A stretch of DNA of 36,222 bases, taken from contig VGAZ01000007.1 of NCBI GenBank assembly GCA_016870615.1, forward strand, positions 1 to 36,222. Reading direction: 5' to 3'. The notes under the pieces were generated by a model. The model was not told the origin of the DNA. It was given only the letters and a program-made list of their open reading frames with translations, and made no database searches. This stretch comes from Actinomycetota bacterium (GTDB taxonomy: Bacteria; Actinomycetota; Humimicrobiia; Humimicrobiales; Humimicrobiaceae). A program made the translations under genes and the position numbers. Of this stretch, positions 1 through 23,508 are shown piece after piece (position 1 is the stretch's first letter; each line of letters starts with the position of its first letter).

Positions 1-734
1 TTAAATTTGATAAGGAAAAAATAAAAGATACTGTAAGAGTATATCTTGCTGTAAAAAAAATGTGCCAGGATAACAATTTTTCAGCAGTAGCCTTTGACTG
101 CGCCTCAAAACTTGTGGTGTTAAAGAGCATTATAGGGTGCCTGTCAAACTCCCTTCTAAATTCAGACGGCATAACTGCCGGATGTGAGGGGGACATGTTA
201 AGCACAATTTCATCATATATTTTAAAACTGTTTTCAGGTATGCCAACAGCCGTTAGCGACATGCCAGCTTTTGATGATAATGATAACTCAGTTCTTTTGT
301 GGCACTGCGGCTCAGCGCCTCTTGAAATGGCTGGCACCTGTGGAGCTATATGCAGGAATGTTTACAGGTCAGATTTTGCAAAAGGGACTGAATTTGATAA
401 TCTAGGCCCCATTACCGATATGGTATATCCCAAAAGCGATGTTACAGTTTTCAGGCTAACCGGGGAGTCTGATTATTACTATTACTTTACCGGAAAAAGT
501 TTTAATGAAAAAAAGGAATCCTGGTATGGAAACAGGGGATGGATAAATGAATTGAAACTGTACGGTAAACCCGTAAGGGCCATTGATTTAATAAATACGA
601 TTCTTATAAATAATATACAGCACCATTACCCGGTTGTATTAAAGGACGTTAGCAAGTATATTGATGAATTTGCGTACTGGCTCGGGTTAAAAAGGGTAAA
701 AAGGCTGGGATATGAAGATTTTTTATACCCATAA
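1..734 (+). CDS. L-fucose/L-arabinose isomerase-like protein, C-terminal part (5' end outside window)
   Basis: The reading frame is open from the first bases of the window (in frame from position 3), so the gene starts to the left. The visible part aligns closely with the C-terminal half of the complete 471-residue paralog at 12722-14137; both share NSLLNSDGI, GCE, the LLWHCGSAP block and FAYW near the end. The LLWHCG block resembles one I remember from the C-terminal domain of fucose/arabinose-isomerase-like proteins. These convert aldoses to ketoses in the cytoplasm, usually with a divalent metal. A start at the internal ATG at 60 would drop conserved residues and is not credible. The next gene is 120 bp downstream. 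The substrate is unknown; a deoxysugar fits the neighbours (mutarotases, rhamnulokinase-like kinase, class II aldolase). Confidence 0.75.
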   Translation, partial: KFDKEKIKDTVRVYLAVKKMCQDNNFSAVAFDCASKLVVLKSIIGCLSNSLLNSDGITAGCEGDMLSTISSYILKLFSGMPTAVSDMPAFDDNDNSVLLWHCGSAPLEMAGTCGAICRNVYRSDFAKGTEFDNLGPITDMVYPKSDVTVFRLTGESDYYYYFTGKSFNEKKESWYGNRGWINELKLYGKPVRAIDLINTILINNIQHHYPVVLKDVSKYIDEFAYWLGLKRVKRLGYEDFLYP

Positions 735-854
735 ATTATATTTATTAAATACATAATAAATATGCATTTTCTGTACTTTGTGTGTTTACTGGTAAGATAA
801 TTTATTGGATATCTATAATATGATAATTAATTACATTAAGACAGGAGGATTTTA

Positions 855-1838
855 ATGCTTAAACCTTATATAAGCTCACATCTATGGGTTCTGGGATCTT
901 TTGGAGAAAGATATGTCCCAAATGGATATTATGAAGATATGAAGCTTGAAAAAAAACTTGAAGCGATGTCTGAAATCGAAGGATACAATGGTATCCTTGT
1001 GTTTTATCCGTCAGATCCACTTCCAGATGATCCTGATAAAATTGTAAAAATGCTTGCAAACCACGGACTTAAAGTAGCAAATACTGCAGTAGAAAATTTT
1101 ACAGACAGAAAATGGAGGCATGGAGCCCTGTGTACAAATGAAGAAAAGATCCGCAAGGAAAATATTAAACTATGCAAGGAAGCGGTAGATTTTACTGCAC
1201 AAATTCCAGGGGCTTCGCTCCGAATCTGGCCTGCTCATGACGGGTTTGATTACCCATTCCAGGTAAATTATGAAGAAGGCTGGAAATATCTTGTAGACAG
1301 CTACAGACAAATATGTTCACATAACCCAGGTGTTAAGATATCAGTGGAATACAAGCAGAAAGACCCTAGACAAAGGCAATATATAAGTAATATAGGGAAA
1401 ATGATGATGCTTTTTAATGATGTAGGAATGGATAATTTAACAGGAGCTCTTGATACCGGACATGCATTGATGAGCCAGGAAAGTCTTGCAGAAGATGTGG
1501 TTATTCTTGCTATGCATAATAAATTAAATGAAGTTCATTTAAATGAAAATTACAGGGACTCAGACCCGGATTTGATATTCGGAACAATAATGTTCTGGGA
1601 GAATCTTGAATTGTATTATTATCTGAATAAATATAAATTTTCAGGTTGGCATGAAATAGACATTATAACGCCCAGGGATGACAGGATAAAAGCACTAAGA
1701 CTTGCTGTAAAAATGACCCTTAAATACGACGAGCTCGCAAAAAGATTGCTTGAACACAGGGATAAGATAGAAACAAATCTTGGTGGCTATCATTTCTCAG
1801 ATAATATGGAACTTATTTGTGATTTATTATTTAAATAA
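855..1838 (+). CDS. Xylose-isomerase-like TIM-barrel sugar isomerase/epimerase
   Basis: A 327-residue cytoplasmic protein of the sugar phosphate isomerase/epimerase (AP endonuclease 2-like) superfamily. The expected metal-site residues can be placed as E165 (in SVEYK), D200 and H203 (in LDTGHA), H228 (in VHLNEN) and E267 (in WHEID). This is the usual Glu/Asp/His/Glu pattern for keto-aldo isomerisation or epimerisation. The start is supported by a strong ribosome binding site, aggagg, a few bases upstream, and a TATAAT-like box lies at 814-819. The arrangement resembles L-rhamnose isomerases of the xylose-isomerase fold, but other members act on inosose or 3-keto sugars, so the substrate is open. 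It sits between the isomerase-like gene at the left edge and the DeoR-type regulator, inside the sugar/methyltransferase island. Confidence 0.7.
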   Translation: MLKPYISSHLWVLGSFGERYVPNGYYEDMKLEKKLEAMSEIEGYNGILVFYPSDPLPDDPDKIVKMLANHGLKVANTAVENFTDRKWRHGALCTNEEKIRKENIKLCKEAVDFTAQIPGASLRIWPAHDGFDYPFQVNYEEGWKYLVDSYRQICSHNPGVKISVEYKQKDPRQRQYISNIGKMMMLFNDVGMDNLTGALDTGHALMSQESLAEDVVILAMHNKLNEVHLNENYRDSDPDLIFGTIMFWENLELYYYLNKYKFSGWHEIDIITPRDDRIKALRLAVKMTLKYDELAKRLLEHRDKIETNLGGYHFSDNMELICDLLFK

Positions 1839-2100
1839 GTGCAAGAATTTGAGCTTGGGGATTAATTTGATATTAATAAAGAAATTTTACAGGCTTAACT
1901 CAGTTATTAAATAATATAAGAAAGAAACTATAAGCCAGAATGATTTAAATAAAAAACTTTTAGAAAATATTGATTATAAAAAGCATTATAGGTAAGAAAT
2001 TTTCATTAATATTGCTTTTCTAATGAATTTACAATATAATTATAACGTTTTATACATGTTTTCTCAATTATTATATATATTATTATACAAATTTTTTCAT

Positions 2101-2877
2101 ATGAATCCTGAAGAAAGAAGAAAAAAAATACTGGATTTTGTGAGAAAAAGCAAAAACAAAGTCACAGTGAAAGGCCTATCTTTAGAATTAGGAATACCAC
2201 AGTCATTAGCATATAAAGATATAGGCATACTTGAAAGCCAACGATTGTTAAAGAAAAAATATGGCAGCATTAATATTTTCGAATCTGAAAAAAAACAACA
2301 TAATTTTTTTCTAAGATTACAGAAAAATGAAAAACAGAAAAAAGCTATAGCCAAAAAAGCAGTTTCGATTGTATGCGATGGCGATACAATATTTCTAGAC
2401 GGTTCCACAACTGTATATTATTTTTTTGAAGAACTTAAAAGAGCTAATCTGCAAAATATTACACTTATAACCAATTCCATCTTCATACCTCAGGAGATGA
2501 TTCTGCAAGATAATATAGATCTTATTTGTGTAGGGGGTGTCTTAAATAAATACCTCGGCACAAGTGATGGTGACACATGGGAAATGCTGGTAAAGAATAA
2601 TATTTATGCAAACAAGTTTTTCTTTTCATGTTTTGCTATGTCAACAGAGATTGGAGTACTGGACCCTATACAGGTAGATGCAAGCATGAAATCAGTTTTT
2701 TCTTTAAGGTCACAGGAAAAAATATGCCTTTTAGACAGTAGTAAGTTTTTTCTTTATAGCGCAAATAACTGGATTGGACTGGATGAGATAGATTTAATTA
2801 TATCAGATTCTGGTTTAAACGAAGATATTAAGGAAAAACTTTCCCTGAAAGATGTTAAAGTTCTAATTGCTGATTGA
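2101..2877 (+). CDS. DeoR/GlpR-family transcriptional regulator
   Basis: With the start at 2101 the protein has 258 residues, the usual DeoR length, and begins MNPEERRKKILDF, the typical first helix of the N-terminal winged helix. A start at 2023 would add 26 hydrophobic residues and has no better ribosome site; neither start has a clear Shine-Dalgarno sequence. The C-terminal DeoRC sensor domain is recognisable from DGSTTVYYF, ITNS and GGVLNKYLGTSDG, the region that normally binds a phosphorylated sugar. The gene lies directly upstream of the sugar ABC importer, so it most likely represses or activates this island in response to a sugar phosphate. Candidate operators are the inverted repeats at 2893-2912 and 2964-2983. 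The regulator family is clear; the effector is not. Confidence 0.8.
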   Translation: MNPEERRKKILDFVRKSKNKVTVKGLSLELGIPQSLAYKDIGILESQRLLKKKYGSINIFESEKKQHNFFLRLQKNEKQKKAIAKKAVSIVCDGDTIFLDGSTTVYYFFEELKRANLQNITLITNSIFIPQEMILQDNIDLICVGGVLNKYLGTSDGDTWEMLVKNNIYANKFFFSCFAMSTEIGVLDPIQVDASMKSVFSLRSQEKICLLDSSKFFLYSANNWIGLDEIDLIISDSGLNEDIKEKLSLKDVKVLIAD

Positions 2878-2892
2878 AAATATTAGATAAAA

Positions 2893-2912
2893 ATCCGTTT
2901 AAAAGAACGGAT
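2893..2912. promoter_or_regulatory. Inverted repeat upstream of sugar-binding protein gene
   Basis: ATCCGTT (2893-2899), a 6-base spacer and AACGGAT (2906-2912) form a perfect 7-bp dyad 16 bp after the regulator's stop codon. No T-run follows, so it is a poor intrinsic terminator. Its place between a DeoR-type gene and the transporter it probably controls makes it a candidate operator. Confidence 0.35.
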
Positions 2913-2963
2913 GAATTTATAAAAAGGAGGAGGTGAAACTCATATAGAATGAATAATAAAAAT

Positions 2964-2983
2964 CCAAGTTATTTTTAACTTGG
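2964..2983. promoter_or_regulatory. Perfect 8-bp dyad in the leader of the sugar-binding protein gene
   Basis: CCAAGTTA (2964-2971), TTTT, TAACTTGG (2976-2983) is a perfect 8-bp inverted repeat ending 25 bp before the start codon of the substrate-binding protein. There is no T-tract after it. It may be an operator for the neighbouring DeoR-type regulator or an mRNA 5' stabilising hairpin. Its sequence differs from the other dyad at 2893-2912. Confidence 0.4.
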
Positions 2984-3008
2984 AGTAATAAAAATATGAG
3001 GAGGGAAA

Positions 3009-4148
3009 ATGAAAAAGACAAAAATTGCATTGTTAGTCTGCCTATCATTGATAATGGTGGCAACGTTTATGGCTTTACCTGGTTGTAAAACTGGTACAGC
3101 ACCGGAAACTGTAATAGTGAAAGAAACTGTTGTTGAAACTGTTATCGAGAAGGTAGAAGTTGAAGTGGATGCAGATTCACCTTACACTTATGAGAAATTA
3201 AGGGAAATGGCAAAAGCCGGCGCATATGAAGGCGAACCTGCAAAAGGCCGCACAATGGCTTTTGCAAACGCAATTAAATCGTTTCCATTCTGCTTATCAG
3301 TTGAGAATAGCATAATAGAACAATGGCAATTGGCAGGCGGTTCTATGGCTGACCTGACAGTTCTTGATAATGCTGTAGACCCGGCAGTATCAGTGCAGAA
3401 TGCAGATATTATCTTCAATAAAATGCCTGAAGTTTTCCTACAGTTCCAAATTGATGCACAAATAAACGCTCAAATTGGAAGAAGAGCTCAAGAGCTTGGA
3501 ATTTTTATAATTGCCATAGATATACCGGTCCCGGGATTTCCATTCCAGGGTGTTGATAATTACGGTACTTCTGTTTTAACTGGAAACTGGGCATTGGAAC
3601 AGATAGACCCAGTTTTTGGCGGCTGGGAAAATGTAGATAGAGTATTCTTTCTCTGGAATCCTGTAATTGGTGAAACTGTAGCAATGAGAATGTATGGCGC
3701 AATGGACGTATTCAAGGAAAAATTTGGTGCAGAGGCAGACACAAAAGCTGAGGGTTCAAAGGCAGTGCTGGTTGATGCCGGAAGCACAACTGACGAAGCA
3801 AAAGCAGCTATATCGGATATTCTTGCAGCATATCCCCAGGATGAAAACATAATTGTTTTCACTCTTAATGACCAGGCTGCAGCGGGCGTTCAGGCAGCTG
3901 CAGAGATAGCCGGCAGGTGGAATCCTGACAAGTGGCTTATAATGTCACAGGGCCTTGATGATCTCGGCATGCAGCTTGTAAGAGATGGCGTTATTGACGG
4001 CGACAGCGCATATTTTCCTGAAAAATATGGCGAATACCTGATTCCTGGCGCTCTTGCTCATATGTATGGAAATCCAGTACCTGCATACTTGTTTATCGAT
4101 AATGTTATTATCACGCCTGATAATATTGATGAATATTATCCTAAGTAA
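3009..4148 (+). CDS. Sugar ABC transporter substrate-binding lipoprotein
   Basis: A 379-residue exported protein. The N-terminus has a basic start, a hydrophobic stretch and a lipobox ending LPGC with the lipidated Cys at residue 26. A short Val/Glu-rich linker (about residues 32-52) follows, then a periplasmic-binding-protein type I domain of the ribose/rhamnose/autoinducer-2 class. The start has a good ribosome site (gaggagg) at 2999-3005. It is the first gene of a four-gene importer unit, ahead of the double ATPase and two RbsC-like permeases, and downstream of a DeoR-type regulator. This class binds pentoses, hexoses or deoxyhexoses. Neighbouring mutarotase, kinase and aldolase genes suggest a rhamnose- or fucose-like sugar, possibly methylated. 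Confidence 0.85.
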   Translation: MKKTKIALLVCLSLIMVATFMALPGCKTGTAPETVIVKETVVETVIEKVEVEVDADSPYTYEKLREMAKAGAYEGEPAKGRTMAFANAIKSFPFCLSVENSIIEQWQLAGGSMADLTVLDNAVDPAVSVQNADIIFNKMPEVFLQFQIDAQINAQIGRRAQELGIFIIAIDIPVPGFPFQGVDNYGTSVLTGNWALEQIDPVFGGWENVDRVFFLWNPVIGETVAMRMYGAMDVFKEKFGAEADTKAEGSKAVLVDAGSTTDEAKAAISDILAAYPQDENIIVFTLNDQAAAGVQAAAEIAGRWNPDKWLIMSQGLDDLGMQLVRDGVIDGDSAYFPEKYGEYLIPGALAHMYGNPVPAYLFIDNVIITPDNIDEYYPK

Positions 4149-4194
4149 TATTTAATGTTTTTTATTCAAGCAGGATAGTAATAAATAAAAAATG

Positions 4195-4217: not shown

Positions 4218-4295
4218 AAAACAGTATTTTATTTGAAATGGATTATTACAGAATTTTAATCATAAATAACTAAATAAACTAAAGTGAGGCAAAAT

Positions 4296-5786
4296 ATGCC
4301 AGATAATGAAATATTAATGGAAATGTCAGGCATAACAAAAAACTTCCCGGGAGTTTTAGCGCTTGATGATGTCAGTGTAAGCCTTTATAAAGGTGAAATA
4401 CTGGGACTTCTGGGGGAAAATGGAGCAGGTAAATCTACACTTATAAAAATTCTTTCGGGTGCGTACATGCTTGAAAAAGGGAAGATAATTATTAAGGGAA
4501 AAGAGTGCAAATTTTTAAGTCCGCACGAAAGCTTAGCTGCTGGCATAAGGGTAATATACCAGGAATTGACTTCATTTGAACCACTGACTGTTCTTGAAAA
4601 TATTTTTGCCGGCGAGGTAGTTACGAATAAAGCGGGTTTTGTTTCCTGGAAAGAAATGGCTGCAAAATCAAAAAAAATACTTTCTATGCTTGGCTCGGAA
4701 ATAAATCCTAGTGAGCTTATGGAAAATTTAAGTGTAGGGCAAAAACAGATAGTTGAGATTGCAAAAGCCATTCACGGCAATGCAAAAATAATTGTAATGG
4801 ATGAACCAACATCTGCCCTTGATGAAAAAGAAGTGAACACCTTATACAGTGTAATTAGGAAATTAAGGGAACAAGGGGTGGGCGTTATTTATATATCACA
4901 CAGGATGGAAGAAATATTCCAGATAACCGACAGGGTGGCAGTGCTGCGCGATGGTAAAAAAGTGGGTGATATAAAAACACATGAAACAAATAAATTTGAG
5001 CTTGTAAATCTTATAGTTGGCCGGGAGCTTTCAGAGCAGTATCCCAAAAGGGATATTAAAAAAGGCAAAGTCATTTTTGAAGTTAAAGATCTCACTTATT
5101 TAAATAAAGTTAAAAATGTAAGTTTTAATCTCCGCGAAGGTGAAATTGTGGCTTTTTTTGGTCTTCTTGGTGCTGGAACTCATCAGCTATTTTCAGTAAT
5201 TTTTGGAGATAAAAAAGCAACAAGCGGGGAAATATATGTAGATGGGAGAATGATTAATGTTACAAATCCCAATATTGCAAAAAAAAGCGGGCTAGGGTAT
5301 ATCCCAATCGACAGGAAAGAAGAAGGATTGGCCCTTGTCATGGATTTAAAGCAGAATATAACTTCTGCAAATATTGAAGAGATGGGAGCTGGATTTATTC
5401 TAAATAAAAGAACTGAAAATGAGCATGCTACTAAATGGTTTAACACGCTTAATATAAAAGCTCCATCAATCGATACCCTGGCAGGCAGTCTTTCAGGAGG
5501 AAACCAGCAAAAAGTCGTCGTAGCAAAATGGCTGGAAAAGAATTCAAGAATACTTCTTATGAATGAGCCAACCAGGGGTATAGATGTAGGTTCAAAATCA
5601 GAGATCTATATGATTGCAGAGGATCTCTGTGAAAAAGGAGTTGGGGTGCTGATGGTCTCAAGTGAGCTTCCTGAGATTTTAGCAATATCTGACAGGGTCA
5701 TAGTCATGAGGGACGGTGAGATTGTCGGTGAATTTGTAACTAAAGATACAGACCAGGAAGAACTTATGCACCTGGCTTCCGCATAA
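4296..5786 (+). CDS. Sugar ABC transporter ATP-binding protein, RbsA/MglA type (two ATPase domains)
   Basis: A protein of about 496 residues with two ABC domains in tandem. Domain 1 has Walker A (GENGAGKST), signature LSVGQKQ and Walker B (IIVMDEPTSAL). Domain 2 has a degenerate Walker A (GLLGAGTHQL) but an intact signature LSGGNQQK and NEPTRGID, the asymmetry usual for the RbsA/MglA/XylG family. An in-frame GTG at 4284 could extend it by four residues, but GTGAGG is better read as the ribosome site for the ATG at 4296. It energises uptake through the two permeases encoded just downstream. Confidence 0.9.
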   Translation: MPDNEILMEMSGITKNFPGVLALDDVSVSLYKGEILGLLGENGAGKSTLIKILSGAYMLEKGKIIIKGKECKFLSPHESLAAGIRVIYQELTSFEPLTVLENIFAGEVVTNKAGFVSWKEMAAKSKKILSMLGSEINPSELMENLSVGQKQIVEIAKAIHGNAKIIVMDEPTSALDEKEVNTLYSVIRKLREQGVGVIYISHRMEEIFQITDRVAVLRDGKKVGDIKTHETNKFELVNLIVGRELSEQYPKRDIKKGKVIFEVKDLTYLNKVKNVSFNLREGEIVAFFGLLGAGTHQLFSVIFGDKKATSGEIYVDGRMINVTNPNIAKKSGLGYIPIDRKEEGLALVMDLKQNITSANIEEMGAGFILNKRTENEHATKWFNTLNIKAPSIDTLAGSLSGGNQQKVVVAKWLEKNSRILLMNEPTRGIDVGSKSEIYMIAEDLCEKGVGVLMVSSELPEILAISDRVIVMRDGEIVGEFVTKDTDQEELMHLASA

Positions 5787-5806
5787 CATTAATAGAAAGG
5801 TTGAAT

Positions 5807-6778
5807 ATGCAACAAATGAAAAAAAAGTCCTTTAAGATTACAGATACCTATATACTGCTTATTATTCTTGTAGTATTGGTTGCTTTCTTTTCACTGGTAA
5901 ACAGGCAGTTTATTGCATATAATAATATAAGTACAATGCTTAAGAACATGGTCTTAACCGGTGTTCTTGCATTAGGTCTTACTCCTTTGATGATCGCAAG
6001 AGGCCTGGATATATCTTTTGGCAACTCCATTTCTCTTACCTCGGTTATAATGGCAGTACTCTACACTGTCTTTGGATTAAATTTATGGTTAACATTATTA
6101 ATTGGAATATTAGTTGCAGCATTAATCGGTTTTATAAATGGATTGCTGATAGAGAAATTTAATCTTATCCCTATTATCCTTACCCTTGGAACAATGGCAA
6201 TACTTCAGGCGCTGGCCCTTGTGACTGCAAATACTTTTACTCAGACATACTCAATTCTTATGCTTACAGACCAGCTGTACTACTTTAGCACAAGGACATT
6301 TTTAAAAATTCCTTTGCCTTTGTATGTTCTTATTGTACTGATTTTTATTTTCTGGTTTGTACTTACAAAGACAAAATTTGGAAGGACTATTTATCTTATC
6401 GGTGCAAATCCAAAAGTCGCATATCTTTGCGGTGTAAAGGTAAAAAAGGTTAAAATCCTGCTTTATATATTTATGGGATTCATAACAGGCATTGGTGGTG
6501 TATTAAGTGTAGCGCTCACAGGTGTAGGTGCTTCATATCAAGGCGCGAAGCTTGTTCTTCCCACACTTTCTGCAGTTCTTTTGGGTGGAATATCCCTCAT
6601 GGGCGGCAGTGGAAGTGCACTGGGTACATTGATTGGTGTCTTGATCGTAACTGTTATTTTCAATGGGCTTTCAGTTCTTAATGTACCATCTTATTATATA
6701 CAGCTGTTCCAGGGAATTGCGCTGATTTTAATAGTAGCTGCTTATGAAATCAGAAACAAGAAAATACAAATTATTTAA
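5807..6778 (+). CDS. Sugar ABC transporter permease, RbsC family (first copy)
   Basis: A very hydrophobic protein of about 323 residues with roughly eight to ten membrane segments, of the RbsC/RhaP/LsrC permease family (BPD_transp_2). Family blocks seen are ARGLDISFGNSISLTSVI near residue 65 and LLGGISLMGGSGSALGTLIG near residue 260. The ATG at 5807 lies six bases after AGAAAGG; an in-frame TTG at 5801 is the only upstream alternative. It probably forms a heterodimer with the permease encoded next to it, as in rhamnose and autoinducer-2 importers. Confidence 0.88.
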   Translation: MQQMKKKSFKITDTYILLIILVVLVAFFSLVNRQFIAYNNISTMLKNMVLTGVLALGLTPLMIARGLDISFGNSISLTSVIMAVLYTVFGLNLWLTLLIGILVAALIGFINGLLIEKFNLIPIILTLGTMAILQALALVTANTFTQTYSILMLTDQLYYFSTRTFLKIPLPLYVLIVLIFIFWFVLTKTKFGRTIYLIGANPKVAYLCGVKVKKVKILLYIFMGFITGIGGVLSVALTGVGASYQGAKLVLPTLSAVLLGGISLMGGSGSALGTLIGVLIVTVIFNGLSVLNVPSYYIQLFQGIALILIVAAYEIRNKKIQII

Positions 6779-6812: not shown

Positions 6813-7808
6813 ATGAACGATCAAAAAAGAAATGATTTCTTAAATGCAATTAATCCATTTAATAAAAACTCTATGACTCCGACTCTATTAATAGTTTATG
6901 CTTTAATGATACTAATATTTTCCCTTATAAATCCATTATTTATAAGCCTTGCAAATATCAAGAGTATTGTGGCCAACCTGACTATTTCAGGAATAATGGC
7001 TGTTGGGCTTACAACAGTAATACTCACTGGCAATTTTGACATATCAGTTGGTTCAATACTTGGAGTTTCAGCGATTGTATGCGCAAAATTATATAATATT
7101 GGTGATACTTATATACCGCTGCCGGTTGTTATTCTTGCAGGAATTGCCGTGGGTGCAGCGATTGGAGCAATAAACGGTTTTCTTGTAACTGTTGTTGGAA
7201 TAAACTCTATCATAACAACACTTGGCACACTTGCAGTTTTTCGGGGCCTTGCATATCTTTATGGAACTGAAACTGCACAGATTTATTATAAACCATATGT
7301 TTTTATGGGCAGGGGTTATGTCTTTAAGCATGTTCCGCTTACGCTGATATATTTCATTGTAATACTTGTTCTTATGTATGTTGTACTTAGATTTACTAAA
7401 TTTGGCAGAAATGTATATCAGGTTGGAGCAAATTTGCAGGCAGCAAGGCTTGCGGGTGTTTCAATTAAAAAAACCACTTTTTATACTTTTATTATTTCAG
7501 GAATTACCGCCGGAATCGGAGGAATACTATTGTCTTCACAACTTTCATTCGCACAGGGGGTATTTGGACTTGGATATGAATTCAAGATTCTTGCCATCTG
7601 CGTATTAGGCGGCATCTCGCTTGCCGGGGGCAGAGGAACACTGGTAGGGATCATTGTTGCAACTTTTATACTTGGTTCTATTTCAAATGGGCTTGCACTA
7701 TCAAAAGTTCCAATAGAATGGCGAGACGCGTTTGAAGGTATAATACTCATCATAGCTATAATGGTAGATTCGATCAGGATTAGCAGAAGAGCACTTCTTA
7801 GGGCATAG
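6813..7808 (+). CDS. Sugar ABC transporter permease, RbsC family (second copy)
   Basis: A 331-residue multi-pass membrane protein homologous to the preceding permease, with TGNFDISVGSILGVSAIV and VLGGISLAGGRGTLVG in matching places. Two different permeases rather than a homodimer is the pattern of the rhamnose (RhaPQ) and autoinducer-2 (LsrCD) importers. The stop codon at 7806-7808 is followed after 23 bp by the class II aldolase gene, so transport and catabolism are probably co-transcribed. Confidence 0.88.
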   Translation: MNDQKRNDFLNAINPFNKNSMTPTLLIVYALMILIFSLINPLFISLANIKSIVANLTISGIMAVGLTTVILTGNFDISVGSILGVSAIVCAKLYNIGDTYIPLPVVILAGIAVGAAIGAINGFLVTVVGINSIITTLGTLAVFRGLAYLYGTETAQIYYKPYVFMGRGYVFKHVPLTLIYFIVILVLMYVVLRFTKFGRNVYQVGANLQAARLAGVSIKKTTFYTFIISGITAGIGGILLSSQLSFAQGVFGLGYEFKILAICVLGGISLAGGRGTLVGIIVATFILGSISNGLALSKVPIEWRDAFEGIILIIAIMVDSIRISRRALLRA

Positions 7809-8710: not shown

Positions 8711-8720
8711 GTTTTTAATA

Positions 8721-15085: not shown

Positions 15086-16246
15086 ATGGATTCAAGGCAG
15101 AAATTTTTATCAGTAATGAATTTTGATGAAAATGCATTAATACCGAAAACAGAATTTGCATACTGGGCAGGGACAATCAGGAAATGGTTCAGCCAGGGCC
15201 TGCCAAAAATAAAGGATGTTTCAGAGGAGATTCTGGATCCTGAATCCATAAGAGGTTCAAAACCTCTGACCTTGAAATATGCAGATGAAGTTGATAACAA
15301 TGTGGCGCCTTTTTTTAAACTTGATTCATATCTTGAAAAATTCCCCATTGACTACAGCTCGATGATGCAAAGCAGGGTTCTTGAGGAAAACAACGAATAC
15401 AGGATTTTTGTTGATAAATACGGCCTGACAAATAAAGTCCTGAAGCAGAAATCTTCTATCCCAATGGTAATAGATTACCCGATAAAAAACAGGAAAGATT
15501 TTTATGAGTACGTCTCATTATATGATAACTCCAGTGGTGGAATAGCCAAAAGGTTGCCTGCGGATTTTAATAACCTTGCGGCGGAACTGAAAAACAGAGA
15601 TTTTCCTATAAGGCTCGGGGGTAATCCTTTCGGTTTTTCATTTCTTGCGCGCCACCTGATGGGAGAAGTAACTTTCATGCTTAGCATGTATGATGACCCG
15701 GAATTCATAAAAGAGTTTAATGAATATTTCCTGAATTTTACAATAGATTACTGGTCAGAAATTCTTAGAAAAGTCGAGGTTGACTGTGTATTTATACTTG
15801 AGGACATTGCATACCGCTCGGGATCATTTATATCAAAAGAGATGTTTGACACTTTTATGCGCCCGTATTATTTGAAGCTTATAGATTTTTTAAAACAGTA
15901 TAGTATAAACAACATTTTTGTTGACTGTGACGGATTAATTGGGGAACTCATACCACTCTGGATTGAGGCCGGGGTTACCGGGCTTTTTCCGTTTGAAGCT
16001 GTAAATGATATTGTAGCTGTTAGAAATGAATATCCGCATTTAAAAATGATGGGTGGGTTCAATAAAAAAGTCCTTTTTAAAGATTCTACAAAACAGGAAA
16101 TTGACGGGGAGCTCGGCAGGGTTTTTACAGTATTGAAAAGCGGGGGTTACATACCGCATATTGATCATGCTGTTTCTGAAGATGTGACATGGGAGAATTT
16201 CAGGTACTACAGGGAAAAGCTGAACAGCTTTATAGATAAAATTTAA
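15086..16246 (+). CDS. UroD-fold methyltransferase-like protein 3 (divergent)
   Basis: A 386-residue member of the UroD superfamily, clearly different from the two copies at 10406 and 11542. The HSDG block is replaced by VDCDG (near residue 278), and GNV by MGGFNKK. It has the N-terminal EFAYWAGTI and YGLTNK region seen in many UroD-like proteins next to corrinoid genes. AAAGGAG precedes the start. The replaced metal or corrinoid-contact residues suggest another substrate or acceptor from those of the first pair. It is followed by a RhaM-like mutarotase and then the first corrinoid protein, so it could be the direct partner of the protein at 16798. Confidence 0.72.
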   Translation: MDSRQKFLSVMNFDENALIPKTEFAYWAGTIRKWFSQGLPKIKDVSEEILDPESIRGSKPLTLKYADEVDNNVAPFFKLDSYLEKFPIDYSSMMQSRVLEENNEYRIFVDKYGLTNKVLKQKSSIPMVIDYPIKNRKDFYEYVSLYDNSSGGIAKRLPADFNNLAAELKNRDFPIRLGGNPFGFSFLARHLMGEVTFMLSMYDDPEFIKEFNEYFLNFTIDYWSEILRKVEVDCVFILEDIAYRSGSFISKEMFDTFMRPYYLKLIDFLKQYSINNIFVDCDGLIGELIPLWIEAGVTGLFPFEAVNDIVAVRNEYPHLKMMGGFNKKVLFKDSTKQEIDGELGRVFTVLKSGGYIPHIDHAVSEDVTWENFRYYREKLNSFIDKI

Positions 16247-16300: not shown

Positions 16301-16648
16301 GTGAACAGATACTGTATAGTTCTAGAACTGAAAGATGAATTCATAGAGCCATATTGTGATATTCACCGTAATCCCTGGCCGGAACTGCTTAAATCAATAA
16401 AAGACGGGGGAGCAAAGGAACTGCTGATTTGGAACTACAAGAATCTTTCAATTGTCTATTATGAGTGTGAAGACATAGATAAATTGTATGAAGGGCTTAA
16501 TAAGCTTGAAGTTACAAAGAAATGGAATGTTACAGTAGGGCCATGGTTCAGGAAATCCCTTCCTGTTGATGAAGACGGAAAATTTATAACCTGTGAAAAA
16601 ATATTTGATTTAAACCAGCAGATTGCAGGAAAACTTGAGCAGTACTAA
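16301..16648 (+). CDS. L-rhamnose mutarotase (RhaM) family protein, copy 1
   Basis: A 115-residue ferredoxin-like-fold protein of the RhaM/DUF718 family, which speeds alpha-beta anomer exchange of deoxysugars before isomerisation. Y18 and H22, the residues I remember as the active-site pair in E. coli RhaM, are both in place (EPYCDIH), as is a Trp after them (W26) and a W in KKWNV. Translation starts at GTG 16301 after GGAGGT; the overlapping ATG at 16299 reads straight into TGA and cannot be the start. Found between UroD-fold and corrinoid-protein genes, it ties the methyltransferase set to a deoxysugar. A second copy is at 19143. Confidence 0.75.
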   Translation: MNRYCIVLELKDEFIEPYCDIHRNPWPELLKSIKDGGAKELLIWNYKNLSIVYYECEDIDKLYEGLNKLEVTKKWNVTVGPWFRKSLPVDEDGKFITCEKIFDLNQQIAGKLEQY

Positions 16649-16797: not shown

Positions 16798-17436
16798 ATG
16801 CCTTCATTAAAAGAAATACACGATGCTGTTGCTTCAGGAAATTATAAAGATATAGGCAATCTTGTCCAGGGTGCAATAGACAGTGGAGAAACACTTGAAA
16901 ATATAATAAACAATGCTCTTTCGTCTGCAATGCTGGAGGTAGGGGATAAATTTGGTTCGGGCGATCTTTATATGCCTGATATGCTGCTTGCTGCAAAAGC
17001 AATGAAGGTCGCAATGGAGATAATAAAACCATTGCTTAAGGGTTCAGAACACCTTTCGGAAAAGGGCACTGTTGTTATAGGTACAGTTAAAGGGGACCTT
17101 CATGATATAGGAAAAAACCTGGTTATTACTATGGCGGAAGGGCAGGGTTTTAAAGTTATTGATCTGGGCATAGATGTTGATTTCCAGGTCTTTGTAGATG
17201 CGATTAAAGAACACAATCCCAATATTGTTGCATTTTCCGGACTTCTTACAACTACCCTTGCAAATATTCCCGAGCACATCAGGGCAATAGAGGATGCCGG
17301 GTTAAGAAAATCAGTCAAACTGGCTGTTGGCGGTGCCCCTGTAACACAGCACTTTGCAGATATGTATGGAATAGAAATATATTCTCCTGATGCGTCAGGG
17401 GCCGCTAAAGAGTTTTTAAAGGTATTAAATAAGTAA
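16798..17436 (+). CDS. Corrinoid (B12-binding) methyltransferase protein, MtgC/MtbC-like, copy 1
   Basis: A 212-residue soluble protein of the dimethylamine/glycine betaine corrinoid-protein family. Residues 1-85 form the helical cap domain. The Rossmann B12 domain follows, with D100-L-H102-D-I-G105, where H102 is the lower axial cobalt ligand, then SGLLTTT (147-153) and VGGAPV (177-182). It would accept a methyl group from an MttB- or UroD-type enzyme on Co(I) and hand it on. AGAAAGG precedes the ATG. The next gene is an MttB-family protein, the standard pairing. A reductive activator (RamA-like) would be needed to rescue Co(II), but none is seen in this window. Confidence 0.92.
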   Translation: MPSLKEIHDAVASGNYKDIGNLVQGAIDSGETLENIINNALSSAMLEVGDKFGSGDLYMPDMLLAAKAMKVAMEIIKPLLKGSEHLSEKGTVVIGTVKGDLHDIGKNLVITMAEGQGFKVIDLGIDVDFQVFVDAIKEHNPNIVAFSGLLTTTLANIPEHIRAIEDAGLRKSVKLAVGGAPVTQHFADMYGIEIYSPDASGAAKEFLKVLNK

Positions 17437-17610: not shown

Positions 17611-19062
17611 TTGCGAAAAGGATTTACAAGAAAATTTGAACCTTTAAGGGTGTTATCCGATTCCCAGGTCGAAACCATCCATAAGAGAACCCTCGAAGTG
17701 CTTGCAGAGGTCGGCTGTAAATTTGAATCTGTTCGCGCCCTTGAACTGCTGAAGAAAAACGGTTGCAGGATTGATCTGGAGCAACGGCTGGCATATTTCC
17801 CCCCGGACCTTGTAGAAAGCAGTATCAGAATGTGTCCCAGCAGTTTTTTGGTCAAATCCAGGGATCCAAAAGATAACCTTCTTATAGGCGGGAATACCCT
17901 GTATTTTATGTCGTCGCTTGGTGCAAGATTATCTGATATTGAAACCGGCATGGTGAGAGTGCCTACAATGGAAGAAAATAACCAGGCTATATTTATATCG
18001 GATGCCCTGGATTCAATAGACCTTTACAGCGGTTATACGCCATATTTTGAGATAGAGGGTGTGGAACCAGTCATGCTCTGTTCAACAAGCCTTGCAATGC
18101 GGATTCGCAATTCTACAAAAATTACAAGGGGCACCCAGCCCACCGACACGTTTATCTGGGAGACTCTCATTGCCCAGGCTGCTGGCCAGGAACTTATCGG
18201 CAATATGGAAGCCGCTGCTCCTCTTTCCTATCCTGAGGATGCAATAAATGCCGCTTATACATATGTTGAAGCAGGATTTCCTGTATATATTGCAGCAGGT
18301 TCAGTCATGGGCGGAACTGCACCGGTTACTGTTGCGGGTTCTACTATAAGCAATAATGCTGAGCTTCTTGCGGCTATAGTATTTATACAGTGTATTAGAC
18401 CGGGCACAGGCATTATTGCAAATGATTGTGTATTTCCAATGAATATGGAAAGCGGGGATTTGTTTTTCTGTTCACTTGGGTCAAGCCTTCACCAGATGGC
18501 ATTTAACCAGATATGGCATGATCTTTACAGGATTCCTACCAACAATACGGGTTCAGCATTTCCTAACTCAAAAAAAGCTGATTATCAGAGCGCCTATGAG
18601 AAAACGCATGTTGCTATGGCGTCAGCTCTTTCAGGCGCAAATATGATTGTATTTCATGGCGGGGTTACTGCCGAGCTTTCATATAATCCTGTCCTTGCAA
18701 TAATAGATGATGATATTGCAATGACAATAGGAAAGACAATAGAGGGCTTTGAAGTGAGTGAAGATACAATGGCAGTAGATATTATAAAGGATGTTGGAAC
18801 TGTCCCCGGGACATTTCTAAATAAGACGCATACAAGAGAATGGTGGAAAAAAGAATATTTTTTACCGAAATCTGCGGACAGGCTTTCATATCCCGAATGG
18901 CTCAATTCAGGACATAAAGGGGCAATAGATAAAGCCAGGGAAAGGATGGAGCATATCCTTGCCACCCATAAAGTAAAACCTTTAAGCAGCGATACCGACA
19001 GGGAGTTAGATAAAATACTTAACGATGCGCGAAAATATTACAGGGATAAAGGGCTGCTTTAA
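17611..19062 (+). CDS. MttB/MtgB-family corrinoid methyltransferase (non-pyrrolysine), copy 2
   Basis: A 483-residue MttB-superfamily protein with a TTG start, chosen because AGGAGGAGG (17596-17604) stands six bases before it and the N-terminus (RKGFTRKFEPL) matches the other copies. There is no in-frame UAG. The C-terminal region HGGVTAELSYNP, IIDDDIAMTIG and YYRDKGLL is almost the same as in copy 1, so the two probably bind similar substrates. It follows a corrinoid protein and precedes a RhaM-like mutarotase. Its role is to transfer a methyl group from a small methylated compound to that corrinoid protein. Confidence 0.87.
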   Translation: MRKGFTRKFEPLRVLSDSQVETIHKRTLEVLAEVGCKFESVRALELLKKNGCRIDLEQRLAYFPPDLVESSIRMCPSSFLVKSRDPKDNLLIGGNTLYFMSSLGARLSDIETGMVRVPTMEENNQAIFISDALDSIDLYSGYTPYFEIEGVEPVMLCSTSLAMRIRNSTKITRGTQPTDTFIWETLIAQAAGQELIGNMEAAAPLSYPEDAINAAYTYVEAGFPVYIAAGSVMGGTAPVTVAGSTISNNAELLAAIVFIQCIRPGTGIIANDCVFPMNMESGDLFFCSLGSSLHQMAFNQIWHDLYRIPTNNTGSAFPNSKKADYQSAYEKTHVAMASALSGANMIVFHGGVTAELSYNPVLAIIDDDIAMTIGKTIEGFEVSEDTMAVDIIKDVGTVPGTFLNKTHTREWWKKEYFLPKSADRLSYPEWLNSGHKGAIDKARERMEHILATHKVKPLSSDTDRELDKILNDARKYYRDKGLL

Positions 19063-19142: not shown

Positions 19143-19481
19143 ATGGAAAATACATGTGTTTATATGAAAATAAAGCCTGAAGGCAGGGAAGGTTATATCA
19201 ACATACATAAAAAAGGCAATGTGTGGAAAGAAGTGCTTGAAAATCTGAAGAATGCAGGCTTTAAAAAAATGAAAATATATATGCTTGATAATTATGCAGT
19301 GGTATATATTGAAGCTGAAAACATTGCAAAGGCTTTCAAATATCTTGGAAAGCAGCCAGATACATCCAGATGGAATGAAGCCACTTCAGCATTTATGGAA
19401 ACCCAGCCTGACTATGATTCCGAAGAAGTTGTTAAACAGCTTGAATGCGTTTTTAATTTTGAAAATGGAGTCCAGAAATAG
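19143..19481 (+). CDS. L-rhamnose mutarotase (RhaM)-like protein, copy 2
   Basis: A 112-residue protein of the same fold as the one at 16301. It keeps Y18 and H22 (EGYINIH) and a Trp after them (W28), but the rest has diverged strongly. GGCAGGAGG stands just before the ATG. It lies between MttB copies 2 and 3. If active it would exchange anomers of a deoxysugar or methylated sugar. Alternatively, members of the dimeric alpha-beta barrel superfamily can act as small binding proteins. Family assignment is less certain than for copy 1. Confidence 0.6.
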   Translation: MENTCVYMKIKPEGREGYINIHKKGNVWKEVLENLKNAGFKKMKIYMLDNYAVVYIEAENIAKAFKYLGKQPDTSRWNEATSAFMETQPDYDSEEVVKQLECVFNFENGVQK

Positions 19482-19626: not shown

Positions 19627-21078
19627 ATGAGAAAGGGATTTACAAGGAAAATAGCGCCGGTTAAAGTACTTTCTGATACCCAGATTGAATATATACACAA
19701 CTCCTCTCTTGAAGTACTTGAAAAAACAGGTGTAAAACTTGAAAGTGAAAGAGCCTTAAAAATACTAAAAGAAAACGGGTGCATTATTGATTTTGAATCC
19801 AAGATTGCAAAGTTTCCAGGCTGGCTCGTTGAAGAATCTGTAAGGAGGGCGCCCTCCAGCTTTTCAGTAAAAGCGCGCATACCTGAAGACGACTTGAGAA
19901 TAAGTATGTCAAACCTTTATTTTATGCCTGCAGCAGGGGCAAAACTCCATGACGAAAAAACAGGCAGTCTATCTGTTGCAACACTCAAAGAGAATGACCA
20001 GGGCGTTAAAATATGCGATGGTCTAGATGCTGCTGATTTCCAGGCATCATATTGCCCTTATTTTGAACTTAAGGATATTGAACCTGTAATGCTTCTTGCG
20101 GAAAGCCAGGCAAGTATCGCTCGTAATTCTACAAGAGTGTCAAGGGGAGCGCAGGCTACTGATTCATTTATATGGGAAGCCCAAATAGCGAATGCTGCCG
20201 GCAAGCAGCTGATAGGCACCATGGAGGGGGCAGCCCCTCTTTGTTTTCCTGAAGACGCGGTCAATGCCGCATTTGAGTATATGGATAATGGTTTTCCCAT
20301 ATGGGCAACAGGAGGCTCTATAATGGGCGGAAGCTCGCCTGTCACTATTGCAGGCGCAACAGTGACAAATAATGCTGAAATACTTGCAGCAATAACTTTT
20401 ATACAATGCTACAGGCCGGGGAATGCAGTCCTTGCAAATGATTTTGTAGTACCGATGGACATGGAAAGCGGCAACTTGTTTTTCGGTGCAATAGGGGCCG
20501 GCTTTCACCAGATGGCGTTTAACCAGATATACAGGGAGCTTTACCGCATACCGACATGCAACGCTATGGCGGCATTTCCCAATTCAAAGCTTATTGATTA
20601 CCAGAATGCTTTTGAAAAAACGCATCTTGCCCTGTCTGCAGCACTTTCTGGTGCAAGCATGATTGCATTTATAGGTTCTGTGAGCCAGGAGCTTGCATGG
20701 AGCCCGCTGCAGGCTGTTATTGATAATGATGCTGTGAATATAATTGGCAGATATATAGAAGGATTTGAGATAAATGATTTGACAATTGCATCTGATCTTA
20801 TAGCTGAGGTCGGCCCGTCTCCGGGTTCATTTTTGGGTAAAAAACACACAAGGGAAAATTGGCGACGGGAATCTTATATCCCTAAAACATTTGACAGGCT
20901 GTCTTACCAGGACTGGGCACGCTCAGGAAAACCTTCTGTCATTGATAAAGCAAGGAATAGTGTTGAGGAAATAATAAAAAAACACAGACCGCAACCTTTA
21001 TCAGAAACCCAGGAGAATCAAATCCAGGGAATTCTAAAAGAAGCAAGGAAGTATTATGAAAAAAAAGGTTTACTCTAA
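19627..21078 (+). CDS. MttB/MtgB-family corrinoid methyltransferase (non-pyrrolysine), copy 3
   Basis: A 483-residue paralog of the proteins at 8847 and 17611, starting MRKGFTRKIAPVKVL and ending YYEKKGLL. It has no in-frame UAG. In the conserved C-terminal region it departs from the other two: HGGVTAEL is IGSVSQEL, and IIDDDIA is VIDNDAV. These changes fall in a block that is nearly invariant between copies 1 and 2, so a different methyl donor is likely. AAAGGAAG precedes the ATG. A corrinoid protein follows after 103 bp and is probably its partner. The 5' end is preceded by a duplicated start region and REP-like repeats. Confidence 0.87.
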   Translation: MRKGFTRKIAPVKVLSDTQIEYIHNSSLEVLEKTGVKLESERALKILKENGCIIDFESKIAKFPGWLVEESVRRAPSSFSVKARIPEDDLRISMSNLYFMPAAGAKLHDEKTGSLSVATLKENDQGVKICDGLDAADFQASYCPYFELKDIEPVMLLAESQASIARNSTRVSRGAQATDSFIWEAQIANAAGKQLIGTMEGAAPLCFPEDAVNAAFEYMDNGFPIWATGGSIMGGSSPVTIAGATVTNNAEILAAITFIQCYRPGNAVLANDFVVPMDMESGNLFFGAIGAGFHQMAFNQIYRELYRIPTCNAMAAFPNSKLIDYQNAFEKTHLALSAALSGASMIAFIGSVSQELAWSPLQAVIDNDAVNIIGRYIEGFEINDLTIASDLIAEVGPSPGSFLGKKHTRENWRRESYIPKTFDRLSYQDWARSGKPSVIDKARNSVEEIIKKHRPQPLSETQENQIQGILKEARKYYEKKGLL

Positions 21079-21181: not shown

Positions 21182-21829
21182 ATGGCAGACTCAATACAAA
21201 GCTTAAAAGATGTAGTACTGGATTTTGATATTGACAGAGCTGAAGAAGTTGCAAGAAATGCAATAGATTCAGGCACTGATCCTCTTCTTGCAGCTGCAGC
21301 TTTAACAGATGCAATTAGACAGGTTGGTGATGCATTCGGTAAAGGGGATTTATTTTTGCCAGATCTTGTATGCGCATCTGAAGTATTGAAAAAGGCTTTT
21401 CCAATAGTTAATGATGCTATTGAAAAAAAAGGCGCAACACAGGAATCACTCGGCAAGGTAGTAATAGGTACAGTGTTTGGCGACATACATTCCATAGGAA
21501 AAGGAATGGTTTCCACACTCTTGTATGCTGCCGGCTTTAAGGTAATTGACCTTGGCATAAATGTTAAGGGGGAAGATTTCTTGAAAGCTGTAAAAGATGA
21601 AAACGCAAATGTGCTTGCTATGTCAGCCCTATTAACTACAACAGCCATGGAGCAGAAAAAAGTCATTGAGGGCCTTAAGGAGGCAGGGATAAGAGATAGA
21701 GTAAAGGTGGTGGTGGGAGGAAGTCCCATAAACCAGGAATTTGCAGACTCCATAGGCGCAGATGGTTATGGCTCAACTGCCCCCGAAGGAGTCAAGGTCG
21801 TAAAGAGGCTTCTTGGGATAAAGGACTAG
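21182..21829 (+). CDS. Corrinoid (B12-binding) methyltransferase protein, copy 2
   Basis: A 215-residue corrinoid protein with the same layout as that at 16798: helical cap (residues 1-90), D101-I-H103-S-I-G106 with H103 as cobalt ligand, SALLTTT near residue 143 and VGGSPI near residue 178. The two share family blocks but differ widely elsewhere, so they probably serve different methyltransferases: 16798 pairs with MttB 2 and UroD 3, and this one with MttB 3. AGAAAGGAAG precedes the start. The next gene is the rhamnulokinase-like kinase, about 200 bp downstream. Confidence 0.92.
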   Translation: MADSIQSLKDVVLDFDIDRAEEVARNAIDSGTDPLLAAAALTDAIRQVGDAFGKGDLFLPDLVCASEVLKKAFPIVNDAIEKKGATQESLGKVVIGTVFGDIHSIGKGMVSTLLYAAGFKVIDLGINVKGEDFLKAVKDENANVLAMSALLTTTAMEQKKVIEGLKEAGIRDRVKVVVGGSPINQEFADSIGADGYGSTAPEGVKVVKRLLGIKD

Positions 21830-21907
21830 CTGGGCATTGAGAGTATTTAAAAAATCCCCATATTTTTAGCAGAAGATAAAAATGTTGAAGGTTTCTTATT
21901 TAAGAAT

Positions 21908-21941
21908 TTAACTGTTTAATAAAAACTGCTTAATCAGTTAA
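21908..21941. promoter_or_regulatory. Inverted repeat in the kinase leader
   Basis: TTAACTG (21908-21914) and CAGTTAA (21935-21941) form a perfect 7-bp dyad with a 20-base spacer. It is followed by AT-rich sequence with a TATAAT at 21974-21979, although no well-spaced -35 box is seen. A separate promoter and operator for the kinase gene are possible. Confidence 0.3.
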
Positions 21942-22029
21942 AATCAATTCAGCTATTTGTTAGAATAGTAATATATAATTACAGGGTTGCGCATGTAAGA
22001 AATATTTCAAATATCTTATGGGAGGTAAA

Positions 22030-23508
22030 ATGGCAACAAAAAATTATCTTGTATTTGATTTCGGGGCAAGTAATGGGCGGGCTTCAGTAGCTGTTTTTGA
22101 TGGCAGCAAATTCGAATTTGATATAGTGCACAGGTTTGACAACATTCCGGTAAATGCCGCAGGCACCCTGTACTGGGATTTCTTAAGGCTTTTCGGGGAC
22201 CTCAAAACAGGTCTTTTGGCAGCAGCAAAAAAATACAGCCAGCTTCAGTCAATGGCAATTGATACATGGGGAGTTGATTTTGGAATTATTGATAAAAACG
22301 GAAAACTCATTTCAAATCCCATACATTACAGGGATGAAAAAAGAAACAGCATGACTGAAGAAGTCTTCGGCATTATAAGTAGGGAAGAGCTTTTCAAGCT
22401 CACGGGCTGCGCAATGCTCTCCTATTACAGTATTTTTAATTTGTATTCTTTAAAAATTCAGGAAAGCCCGGAATACCAGAATGCCGGCAAGCTTTTAATG
22501 ATGCCTGATCTTTTTAATTATTTCCTTACAGGAGTTGCAGTAAATGAATACACTGAGGCCCATACAACACTTATGTGCAGCCCTTTTACCAAAGACTGGG
22601 AGTTTAAAATAATAGATAAACTGGGATTTCCAACAGATATTTTCTCAAAAGTTATACAGCCAGGAACAGAAATAGCATACTTGCAGGAAAATGTCTGCAA
22701 AGAGCTGGAGATAAAACCTTTAAGGGTAATAGCCCCTGCCAGCCATGATACGCCCTCTGCCATTGCAGGCATACCTGTACCGGATAATTCCGGAAACCGG
22801 GTGTTTATGAGTATAGGCACATGGGGTGTAAGCATACTTGAAATGGATTCACCTTTAATTAAAACAGAAATACTGGATGCCGGATTTGCAAATGAAGCAG
22901 GCGCTGAAGGTAAAATGCTTCTGTTTAAGAACTTTGTAGGTATGTGGATAATACAGCAGTCCAGGAACTACTGGCTGAAAGATAAAAAAGACATTTCCTG
23001 GGATGACATTATGTACAGCGCAAAAGATGCAAAACCATCAGGGGCAATAATAAATGTGGATGATTCCGCATTTCTTCTTGGCCAGCATAATATGCCCCAA
23101 TTAATATGTGATTTTTGCAAAAAAACCGGACAAAAAATCCCGGAAGGCATTGGAGAGATTGCCAGGGTTGTTTACGAAGGTTTTGCTTTAAAAATAAAGC
23201 ATGATATTTTAAATCTTGAGAAAATAACAGGAAGCAAATTTGAAGCAATAAATATAGTCGGCGGCGGGACCAAGGACGAGCTATACTGCCAGTGGGCGGC
23301 AGATGCTAGCGGGCTTGAAGTTTTTGCTGGGCCTACAGAAACAACTTCTATTGGTAACCTGTTAATGCAGTTAAAGGCAGCAGGGGAGATTAAAAATCTT
23401 TCTGATGGCAGGCAGCTCTCACTTAACTCTTCAAAGATTAAGCAATACAGCCCGGCAGGCACAGCATATTGGGACAGCCAGTATGAAAAATACCTGAAAA
23501 TTCTTTAG
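22030..23508 (+). CDS. rhaB: Rhamnulokinase-like FGGY carbohydrate kinase
   Basis: A 492-residue FGGY kinase. The closest match by motifs is rhamnulokinase: VFDFGASNGRA at the N-terminus, IDTWGVDFGIID, NPIHYRDEKR, ASHDTPSAIAG, IGTWGVSILE and GGGTKDELYCQWAADASG. Rhamnulokinase phosphorylates L-rhamnulose on O1, giving the substrate for a class II aldolase such as that at 7832. The start is taken at 22030 because GGGAGGT just before it is the ribosome site; the in-frame ATG at 22018 lies before that site. FGGY kinases have relatives for fuculose, xylulose and autoinducer-2, so the exact ketose is not proven. Confidence 0.82.
   Translation: MATKNYLVFDFGASNGRASVAVFDGSKFEFDIVHRFDNIPVNAAGTLYWDFLRLFGDLKTGLLAAAKKYSQLQSMAIDTWGVDFGIIDKNGKLISNPIHYRDEKRNSMTEEVFGIISREELFKLTGCAMLSYYSIFNLYSLKIQESPEYQNAGKLLMMPDLFNYFLTGVAVNEYTEAHTTLMCSPFTKDWEFKIIDKLGFPTDIFSKVIQPGTEIAYLQENVCKELEIKPLRVIAPASHDTPSAIAGIPVPDNSGNRVFMSIGTWGVSILEMDSPLIKTEILDAGFANEAGAEGKMLLFKNFVGMWIIQQSRNYWLKDKKDISWDDIMYSAKDAKPSGAIINVDDSAFLLGQHNMPQLICDFCKKTGQKIPEGIGEIARVVYEGFALKIKHDILNLEKITGSKFEAINIVGGGTKDELYCQWAADASGLEVFAGPTETTSIGNLLMQLKAAGEIKNLSDGRQLSLNSSKIKQYSPAGTAYWDSQYEKYLKIL

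Follow-up and report, generated by a model that had tools for sequence, protein, structure and literature searches.

Gene content of the locus

We analyzed a stretch of 36,222 nucleotides (hereafter, the window) that forms the start of contig C7 (VGAZ01000007.1) in a 2.13 Mb metagenome-assembled genome (MAG), 93% complete. The genome belongs to an uncultured sediment-type bacterium whose named close relatives are Actinomycetota MAGs, including Candidatus Humimicrobium. Positions 1-24400 hold a gene cluster that we consider as a candidate system for the corrinoid-dependent demethylation of a methylated sugar. All its main genes lie on the + strand, with intergenic gaps of 14-188 bases. On the side of methyl transfer, Pfam identifies three methyltransferases of the MttB family, three proteins of UroD type and two corrinoid proteins. 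Interleaved with their genes are sugar genes, namely those for an ABC importer, two RhaM proteins, two to three ketol-isomerases, a class II aldolase and a kinase resembling rhamnulokinase. Every gene class named in the initial annotation of this DNA was matched by Pfam; that list had left out the creatininase-family gene, the DeoR regulator, the short-chain dehydrogenase (SDR), the isomerase fragment at the contig start, and a B12-salvage block with its riboswitch. The features of the cluster are the following (AF2, AlphaFold2 model):

1..734 (+): second AraA/FucI-type ketol-isomerase, 3' part, cut by the contig start (no Pfam match; 53% identity to the isomerase at 12722)
855..1838 (+): xylose-isomerase-like TIM barrel, RhaI/XylA type (PF01261 AP_endonuc_2; PDB 3ktc, E 4e-40)
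2023..2877 (+): DeoR-type regulator with a sugar-phosphate sensor domain (PF00455)
3009..4148 (+): sugar ABC importer, binding protein, Peripla_BP_4 (PF13407)
4284..5786 (+): sugar ABC importer, double ATPase (PF00005, two stretches)
5801..6778 (+): sugar ABC importer, permease 1, BPD_transp_2 (PF02653)
6813..7808 (+): sugar ABC importer, permease 2, BPD_transp_2 (PF02653)
7832..8710 (+): class II aldolase, AraD/FucA/RhaD superfamily (PF00596; under every NCBIfam equivalog cut-off)
8847..10295 (+): MttB-family methyltransferase 1 (MttB1), no pyrrolysine (PF06253, 248 bits; tree)
10406..11419 (+): UroD-fold protein 1 (UroD1), MtaA/CmuA-like (PF01208; PRK06252, 85 bits; PDB matches to methylcobalamin:CoM methyltransferase and CdmB)
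11542..12645 (+): UroD-fold protein 2 (PF01208)
12722..14137 (+): ketol-isomerase, arabinose/fucose isomerase fold (PF24856/PF02952; SftI 123 bits, under cut-off; AF2 and Foldseek)
14176..15006 (+): creatininase-family metallohydrolase (PF02633, 196 bits; metal motif present)
15086..16246 (+): UroD-fold protein 3 (UroD3), divergent (PF01208, 46 bits; AF2 pLDDT 91 and Foldseek)
16301..16648 (+): RhaM-type mutarotase 1 (PF05336)
16798..17436 (+): corrinoid protein a, DLHDIG motif (PF02310 and PF02607)
17611..19062 (+): MttB-family methyltransferase 2 (MttB2) (PF06253; 80-87% orthologs in sugar loci of three relatives)
19143..19481 (+): RhaM-type mutarotase 2 (PF05336)
19627..21078 (+): MttB-family methyltransferase 3 (MttB3) (PF06253)
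21182..21829 (+): corrinoid protein b, DIHSIG motif (PF02310 and PF02607)
22018..23508 (+): rhamnulokinase-like FGGY kinase (FGGY_N/C; TIGR02627, 361 bits, cut-off 528)
23630..24400 (+): short-chain dehydrogenase (PF13561; 57-80% counterparts in the related loci L031 and L032)

Conservation of the association in relatives and in another phylum

The genome-neighbourhood comparison that the initial annotation had called for was carried out on 61 genomes, with neighbourhoods annotated by profiles grown from the window genes, and it found the mixture conserved across many genera and in two loci of another phylum, Aerophobetes. The MttB clade of the window is present in many Humimicrobiaceae-type members and, despite short contigs, 29 of its 38 loci (76%) carry a sugar marker within six genes. 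Among these 38 loci, a sugar enzyme was found in 18, an importer of the same type in 15, a UroD gene in 17 and a corrinoid protein gene in 26. Loci of distant MttB paralogs showed sugar markers within six genes in 16 of 26 cases, often a FucI-type isomerase and a CUT1 importer. In control stretches totalling 547 genes, any sugar marker accounted for 5.7% of genes (a baseline that is perhaps somewhat low, with controls mostly taken from large contigs) and UroD for none. The compared loci are related, and P values for the comparison overstate their independence; nonetheless, their contrast with the controls is large. An arrangement in which sugar and methyltransferase genes always lie apart, which the initial annotation had named as refuting its proposal, is thus excluded by the conserved neighbourhoods in relatives and in Aerophobetes.

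Gene order is also retained. In two MAGs (L031, L032), the importer, FucI, creatininase, MttB2, RhaM2, MttB3 and FGGY genes keep the order of the window, at approximately 56-87% identity, and some ten further genomes have the arrangement B12-MttB-SBP-ABC-permease-permease (B12, corrinoid protein; SBP, substrate-binding protein), together with FGGY, UroD or API genes. A family member (G005) carries Peripla_BP_4/ABC/permease-RhaM-UroD-B12-MttB-MttB-RACo. In Aerophobetes, one locus (L104) combines a GH4 glycosidase, a sugar-phosphate isomerase-type gene, UroD, a corrinoid protein, two MttB genes, RACo, a pterin-binding methyltransferase and a CUT1-type importer component, the binding protein SBP_bac_1, while another (L108) holds a B12-MttB-MttB-RACo core inside a CUT1 importer operon.

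Family searches and sampled stretches, on which the following genome-wide tests rest, gave totals of eight MttB genes (one in two pieces), approximately 24 UroD genes, five RhaM genes and 12 FGGY kinases over cut-off. A 23.5 kb stretch of the cluster, 1.1% of the genome, holds three of the eight MttB genes (P ~7e-5), three of the ~24 UroD genes (P ~0.002) and two of the five RhaM genes (P ~0.001). Moreover, every one of the five RhaM genes has a UroD gene less than 5 kb away, whereas the zones around UroD genes so defined make up ~7% of the genome (P 1.7e-6); the same proximity holds for seven of the eight MttB genes. Seven contigs (C1, C33, C51, C53, C72, C109 and C158) carry UroD together with RhaM, FGGY kinases, FucI-type isomerases, sugar importers or epimerase-type genes. 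Given this genome-wide proximity of RhaM, MttB and UroD, the linkage of sugar genes to UroD and MttB characterizes the genome as a whole rather than the window alone.

The methyltransferase families

The three MttB-family proteins are full-length PF06253 matches (234-248 bits, cut-off 25) with uninterrupted reading frames and no pyrrolysine, the position of that residue being occupied by F. Against the equivalog of trimethylamine methyltransferase MttB, MttB1 scored 273 bits where 525 are needed. In the tree, the window proteins fall inside a 44-row clade with 100/100 support that excludes both DhMtgB (glycine betaine) and MttB (trimethylamine), and 35 of the 44 rows have sugar neighbours. Contact residues for glycine betaine have been proposed for DhMtgB from docking (PMC6855144); at the aligned positions of these docking-predicted contacts (Y94, N199, R309 and H345, the numbering of the alignment being shifted by one), none of 10 clade sequences kept the residue, and an acidic residue takes the place of N199 in eight of the 10. 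Demethylation of glycine betaine or trimethylamine as the primary role of these proteins was rejected because of their sugar neighbours, their separate clade and the missing proposed betaine residues.

Elsewhere in the same genome (C1:63146-64550, L044), an MttB gene of this clade is split into two overlapping frames of 313 and 176 aa, by a frameshift or an assembly error. In L045, L119, L124, L126, L131 and other loci, distant MttB paralogs (~25% identity) stand beside a FucI-type isomerase and a CUT1 importer, which suggests further sugar-linked MttB lineages.

All three UroD-fold proteins match PF01208. UroD3 is weak by sequence (46 bits), and its AF2 model (pLDDT 91) matched UroD and methylcobalamin:CoM methyltransferase in Foldseek. 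For UroD3 and for the isomerase at 12722, a PDB search by sequence gave no match, and their folds were found structurally instead. The closest named group of UroD1 is the MtaA/CmuA type (PRK06252, 85 bits), and true HemE function was rejected for this protein, with a hemE score of 19.5 bits where 303 are required. The zinc ligands of MtaA-type enzymes (HxC...C) are not kept in the UroD proteins, which read HSDG/DCDG and lack Cys at the third ligand position. This weighs against a thiol acceptor such as coenzyme M (CoM), and thiol methylation of that type was rejected. Other members of the UroD superfamily, the characterized O-demethylases MtvB, OdmB and MtoB and also dehalogenases, transfer methyl groups to corrinoid proteins (PMC13222342, PMC8630106). 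In five other contigs of the genome (C33, C72, C75, C109 and C158; L076-L080), UroD-fold genes occur in sugar loci without an adjoining corrinoid protein gene.

Corrinoid proteins, B12 supply and the methyl group

The cobalamin motif DxHxxG is intact in both corrinoid proteins, as DLHDIG in a and DIHSIG in b. Downstream of the SDR gene, the window continues with a block for corrinoid salvage and uptake:

24833..26528 (+): CobT and CobO/BtuR, corrinoid salvage (PF02277, PF02572)
26761-27823: DsrE-like and TusA-like genes inside the B12-salvage block
28154..28345 (+): cobalamin riboswitch upstream of the BtuF gene (RF00174, 78.6 bits)
28511..33850 (+): BtuF, CobU, CobS, BtuC and BtuD, corrinoid uptake and completion (PF01497, PF02283, PF02654, PF01032, PF00005)

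The genes thus run in the order CobT, CobO, DsrE, TusA, riboswitch, BtuF, CobU, CobS, BtuC and BtuD, and the same block is found close to the cluster in a related locus (L033). A salvage block and riboswitch beside the cluster fit a high need for corrinoid. The BtuD-type ATPase (32582-33850) is long, at 422 aa, with an additional C-terminal region past the ATPase domain.

The genome also holds two RACo genes, genes for AcsE/MtrH-type pterin-binding proteins, one of them beside AcsC, and part of the acetyl-CoA pathway. Candidates for methyltransferase 1 (MT1) and the corrinoid proteins lie in the window, and RACo and the pterin methyltransferase 2 (MT2) candidates elsewhere; in the Aerophobetes locus L104, the full set occupies one locus.

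Sugar enzymes and the fate of the sugar

Both RhaM proteins match PF05336 well above its cut-off of 23.4 bits (58.8 and 72.3 bits), and rhamnulokinase is by a wide margin the best match of the FGGY kinase. The TIM barrel at 855 reached 58.6 bits against RhaI (TIGR02635, cut-off 531), and the aldolase 27.5 of 170 bits against the rhamnulose-1-phosphate aldolase equivalog. For the isomerase at 12722, the AF2 model (pLDDT 81.5) found arabinose and fucose isomerases as its best Foldseek matches (arabinose isomerase, E 1.5e-26, TM 0.78). In L031, L032 and L042, a creatininase-family gene adjoins the FucI-type isomerase gene, a conserved arrangement.

Another contig of the genome (C31, L071) carries, in one run at 2082-13668, genes for bacterial microcompartment (BMC) shell proteins, an aldehyde dehydrogenase, a LarA-type lactate racemase, a FAD lactate-type oxidase, GcvH and RACo. 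Such a locus is expected if aldol cleavage of a deoxyhexose yields lactaldehyde. The RACo gene within it is suggestive, and only that, of a second tie between methyl transfer and deoxysugar breakdown.

Proposed pathway and alternative explanations

Altogether, the cluster probably serves the corrinoid-dependent demethylation of a methylated sugar, itself probably an O-methyl 6-deoxyhexose, with the methyl group conserved on folate. That the methyltransferases serve a sugar-linked methyl compound, as the initial annotation had proposed, is strongly supported by the neighbourhoods conserved across many genera and in the two Aerophobetes loci. The genes and their conserved association are observed; we infer the demethylation itself, the substrate, the heteroatom bearing the methyl group, its transfer from the sugar, the order of the steps and how MttB and UroD proteins share the work. 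The ABC importer would take up the methylated sugar, and MttB-type and UroD-type enzymes, each specific for a certain position or intermediate, would load its methyl group onto Co(I) in one of the two corrinoid proteins. RACo, encoded elsewhere, would keep the corrinoid proteins reduced, and a pterin-binding methyltransferase, also encoded elsewhere, would hand the methyl group to tetrahydrofolate and the acetyl-CoA pathway. Once demethylated, the sugar would be mutarotated by RhaM, converted to the ketose via API and AraA/FucI-type isomerases, phosphorylated by the rhamnulokinase-like kinase and cut by the class II aldolase, and the resulting aldehyde may be processed by the microcompartment/lactate locus.

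Several observations weigh against this proposal. Neither a pterin methyltransferase nor RACo is encoded within the window, and acetyl-CoA synthase (ACS, CdhC) was not found in the 93%-complete genome. Many family members do have ACS, a member of the same genus among them, and AcsC in this genome sits close to the start of a contig, so that ACS may be missing through an assembly gap. The creatininase-family protein and the SDR have no place in the proposed pathway, and none of the literature searched gives a sugar substrate for any MttB- or UroD-family methyltransferase. Regarding the deoxysugar first suggested as substrate, the rhamnulokinase-type kinase, RhaM, the class II aldolase and the microcompartment genes elsewhere speak for it, but no sugar enzyme of the cluster reached a curated equivalog cut-off.

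A further point against an O-methyl sugar is that the characterized MttB-family enzymes act on amines or on quaternary amines and betaines (PMC8604678, PMC12155760), and it makes an amine-bearing sugar the chief rival. The substrate would then be an N-methylated compound joined to a sugar (an N-methyl or trimethylammonio amino sugar, or a betaine glycoside), with the MttB proteins demethylating the nitrogen, the UroD proteins relaying the methyl group, the creatininase-type hydrolase cleaving the C-N bond and the sugar part being degraded. The acidic residue at the position of DhMtgB N199 would suit it, as would the hydrolase gene itself, which adjoins the isomerase gene in relatives. We nevertheless regard this explanation as unlikely, as the window holds no deaminase, ammonia-lyase or amine-handling gene, the proposed betaine contacts are not conserved, and the UroD-only sugar loci of the same genome need no amine.

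The same methyl chemistry could also be coupled to a different ring pathway, the substrate being a methylated cyclitol, a methyl pentose, a uronate or an S-methyl sugar. The creatininase-family protein is weakly similar to IolN, the TIM barrel to IolO and the aldolase to MtnB, and related loci contain transketolase-like, ribose-5-phosphate-isomerase-like and triose-phosphate-isomerase-like genes, as judged from a look at the sequences with no HMM test. Against these stand the kinase, best matched by rhamnulokinase, the two RhaM proteins and the isomerase of AraA/FucI fold, and we consider such substrates quite unlikely. An inositol/methyl-cyclitol route was rejected, since the similarities to IolN and IolO are weak and there is no dehydrogenase set, inositol dehydrogenase being absent from the window.

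It is improbable that the MttB and UroD paralogs run a non-methyl reaction on sugars (isomerization, lyase or dealkylation) while the corrinoid proteins serve something else. UroD-fold proteins do occur in several sugar loci of the genome with no corrinoid protein adjoining, and no zinc or known methyltransferase motif was confirmed in these paralogs; in several related loci, however, MttB and UroD adjoin the standard methyl-transfer set of corrinoid proteins with intact DxHxxG, RACo and pterin methyltransferase. Finally, mere coincidence or co-regulation of unrelated sugar and methylamine operons, conceivable in a genome so rich in UroD, MttB and FGGY kinase genes, is very improbable, since the two gene sets alternate gene by gene and this pattern is kept across genera and in a second phylum, at frequencies far above those of the control genes.

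Wider meaning and comparison with known systems

Returning to demethylation of an O-methyl sugar, a broader picture can be drawn, although more tentatively. The family Humimicrobiaceae may live partly on methylated sugars, several independent MttB and UroD lineages having each been recruited to a different one, so that anoxic sediments would possess a methyl-sugar branch of one-carbon metabolism in which the sugar carbon enters a lactaldehyde-type fermentation and the methyl carbon the acetyl-CoA pathway. If true, the MttB and UroD methyltransferase families would extend to a new substrate class, and many proteins annotated as "uroporphyrinogen decarboxylase family" or "trimethylamine methyltransferase" in sugar loci would gain a function. 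Methyl sugars would also count among the sources of methyl groups in the anaerobic carbon cycle, and an uncultured class would be given a way of life. A search limited to open-licence literature found no report of corrinoid-dependent sugar demethylation; this is consistent with the anaerobic opening of O-methyl sugars being undescribed, and with the first reading of this DNA, in which no anaerobic pathway of this kind was known.

Each part of the cluster resembles a known system. As in the non-pyrrolysine MttB-family demethylases of acetogens and methanogens (MtgB, MtpB, MtcB and MtyB), the proteins belong to the same Pfam family, lack pyrrolysine, and have a two-domain corrinoid partner and a RACo-type activator in the genome; unlike them, they form a separate clade without the proposed betaine contacts, and their genes belong to loci for sugar catabolism and not to betaine loci. 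The UroD-family O-demethylases and dehalogenases (MtvB, OdmB, MtoB and CdmB) share with the window the UroD fold and a nearby corrinoid protein, and the methyl ether substrates of enzymes of the MtvB/OdmB/MtoB type provide a precedent for an O-methyl sugar; sequence similarity, however, is only distant (~30 bits to CdmB), and the neighbours are transporters and enzymes for sugars, not aromatics. The soluble CoM methyltransferases MtaA/MtbA and the bacterial mlp clusters make up the best named match of UroD1, in which HxC and C are replaced (HSDG; GGG), and thiol methylation is unlikely. The mutarotases, ketol-isomerase, FGGY kinase and class II aldolase recall L-rhamnose and L-fucose catabolism (RhaM, RhaI, RhaB and RhaD; FucI, FucK and FucA), as does the lactaldehyde-type microcompartment elsewhere in the genome, whereas the sub-threshold equivalog scores of the window enzymes and the methyltransferases inserted among the sugar genes set the cluster apart from these pathways.

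O-methyl sugars occur in plant, algal and bacterial glycans, and marine bacteria demethylate 6-O-methyl-galactose aerobically by means of a P450, in an oxygen-dependent reaction that releases formaldehyde. In both that route and the one proposed here, a methyl ether would be removed from the sugar ahead of its catabolism; in contrast to the P450 route, the cluster in the window is apparently anaerobic, corrinoid-based and methyl-conserving.

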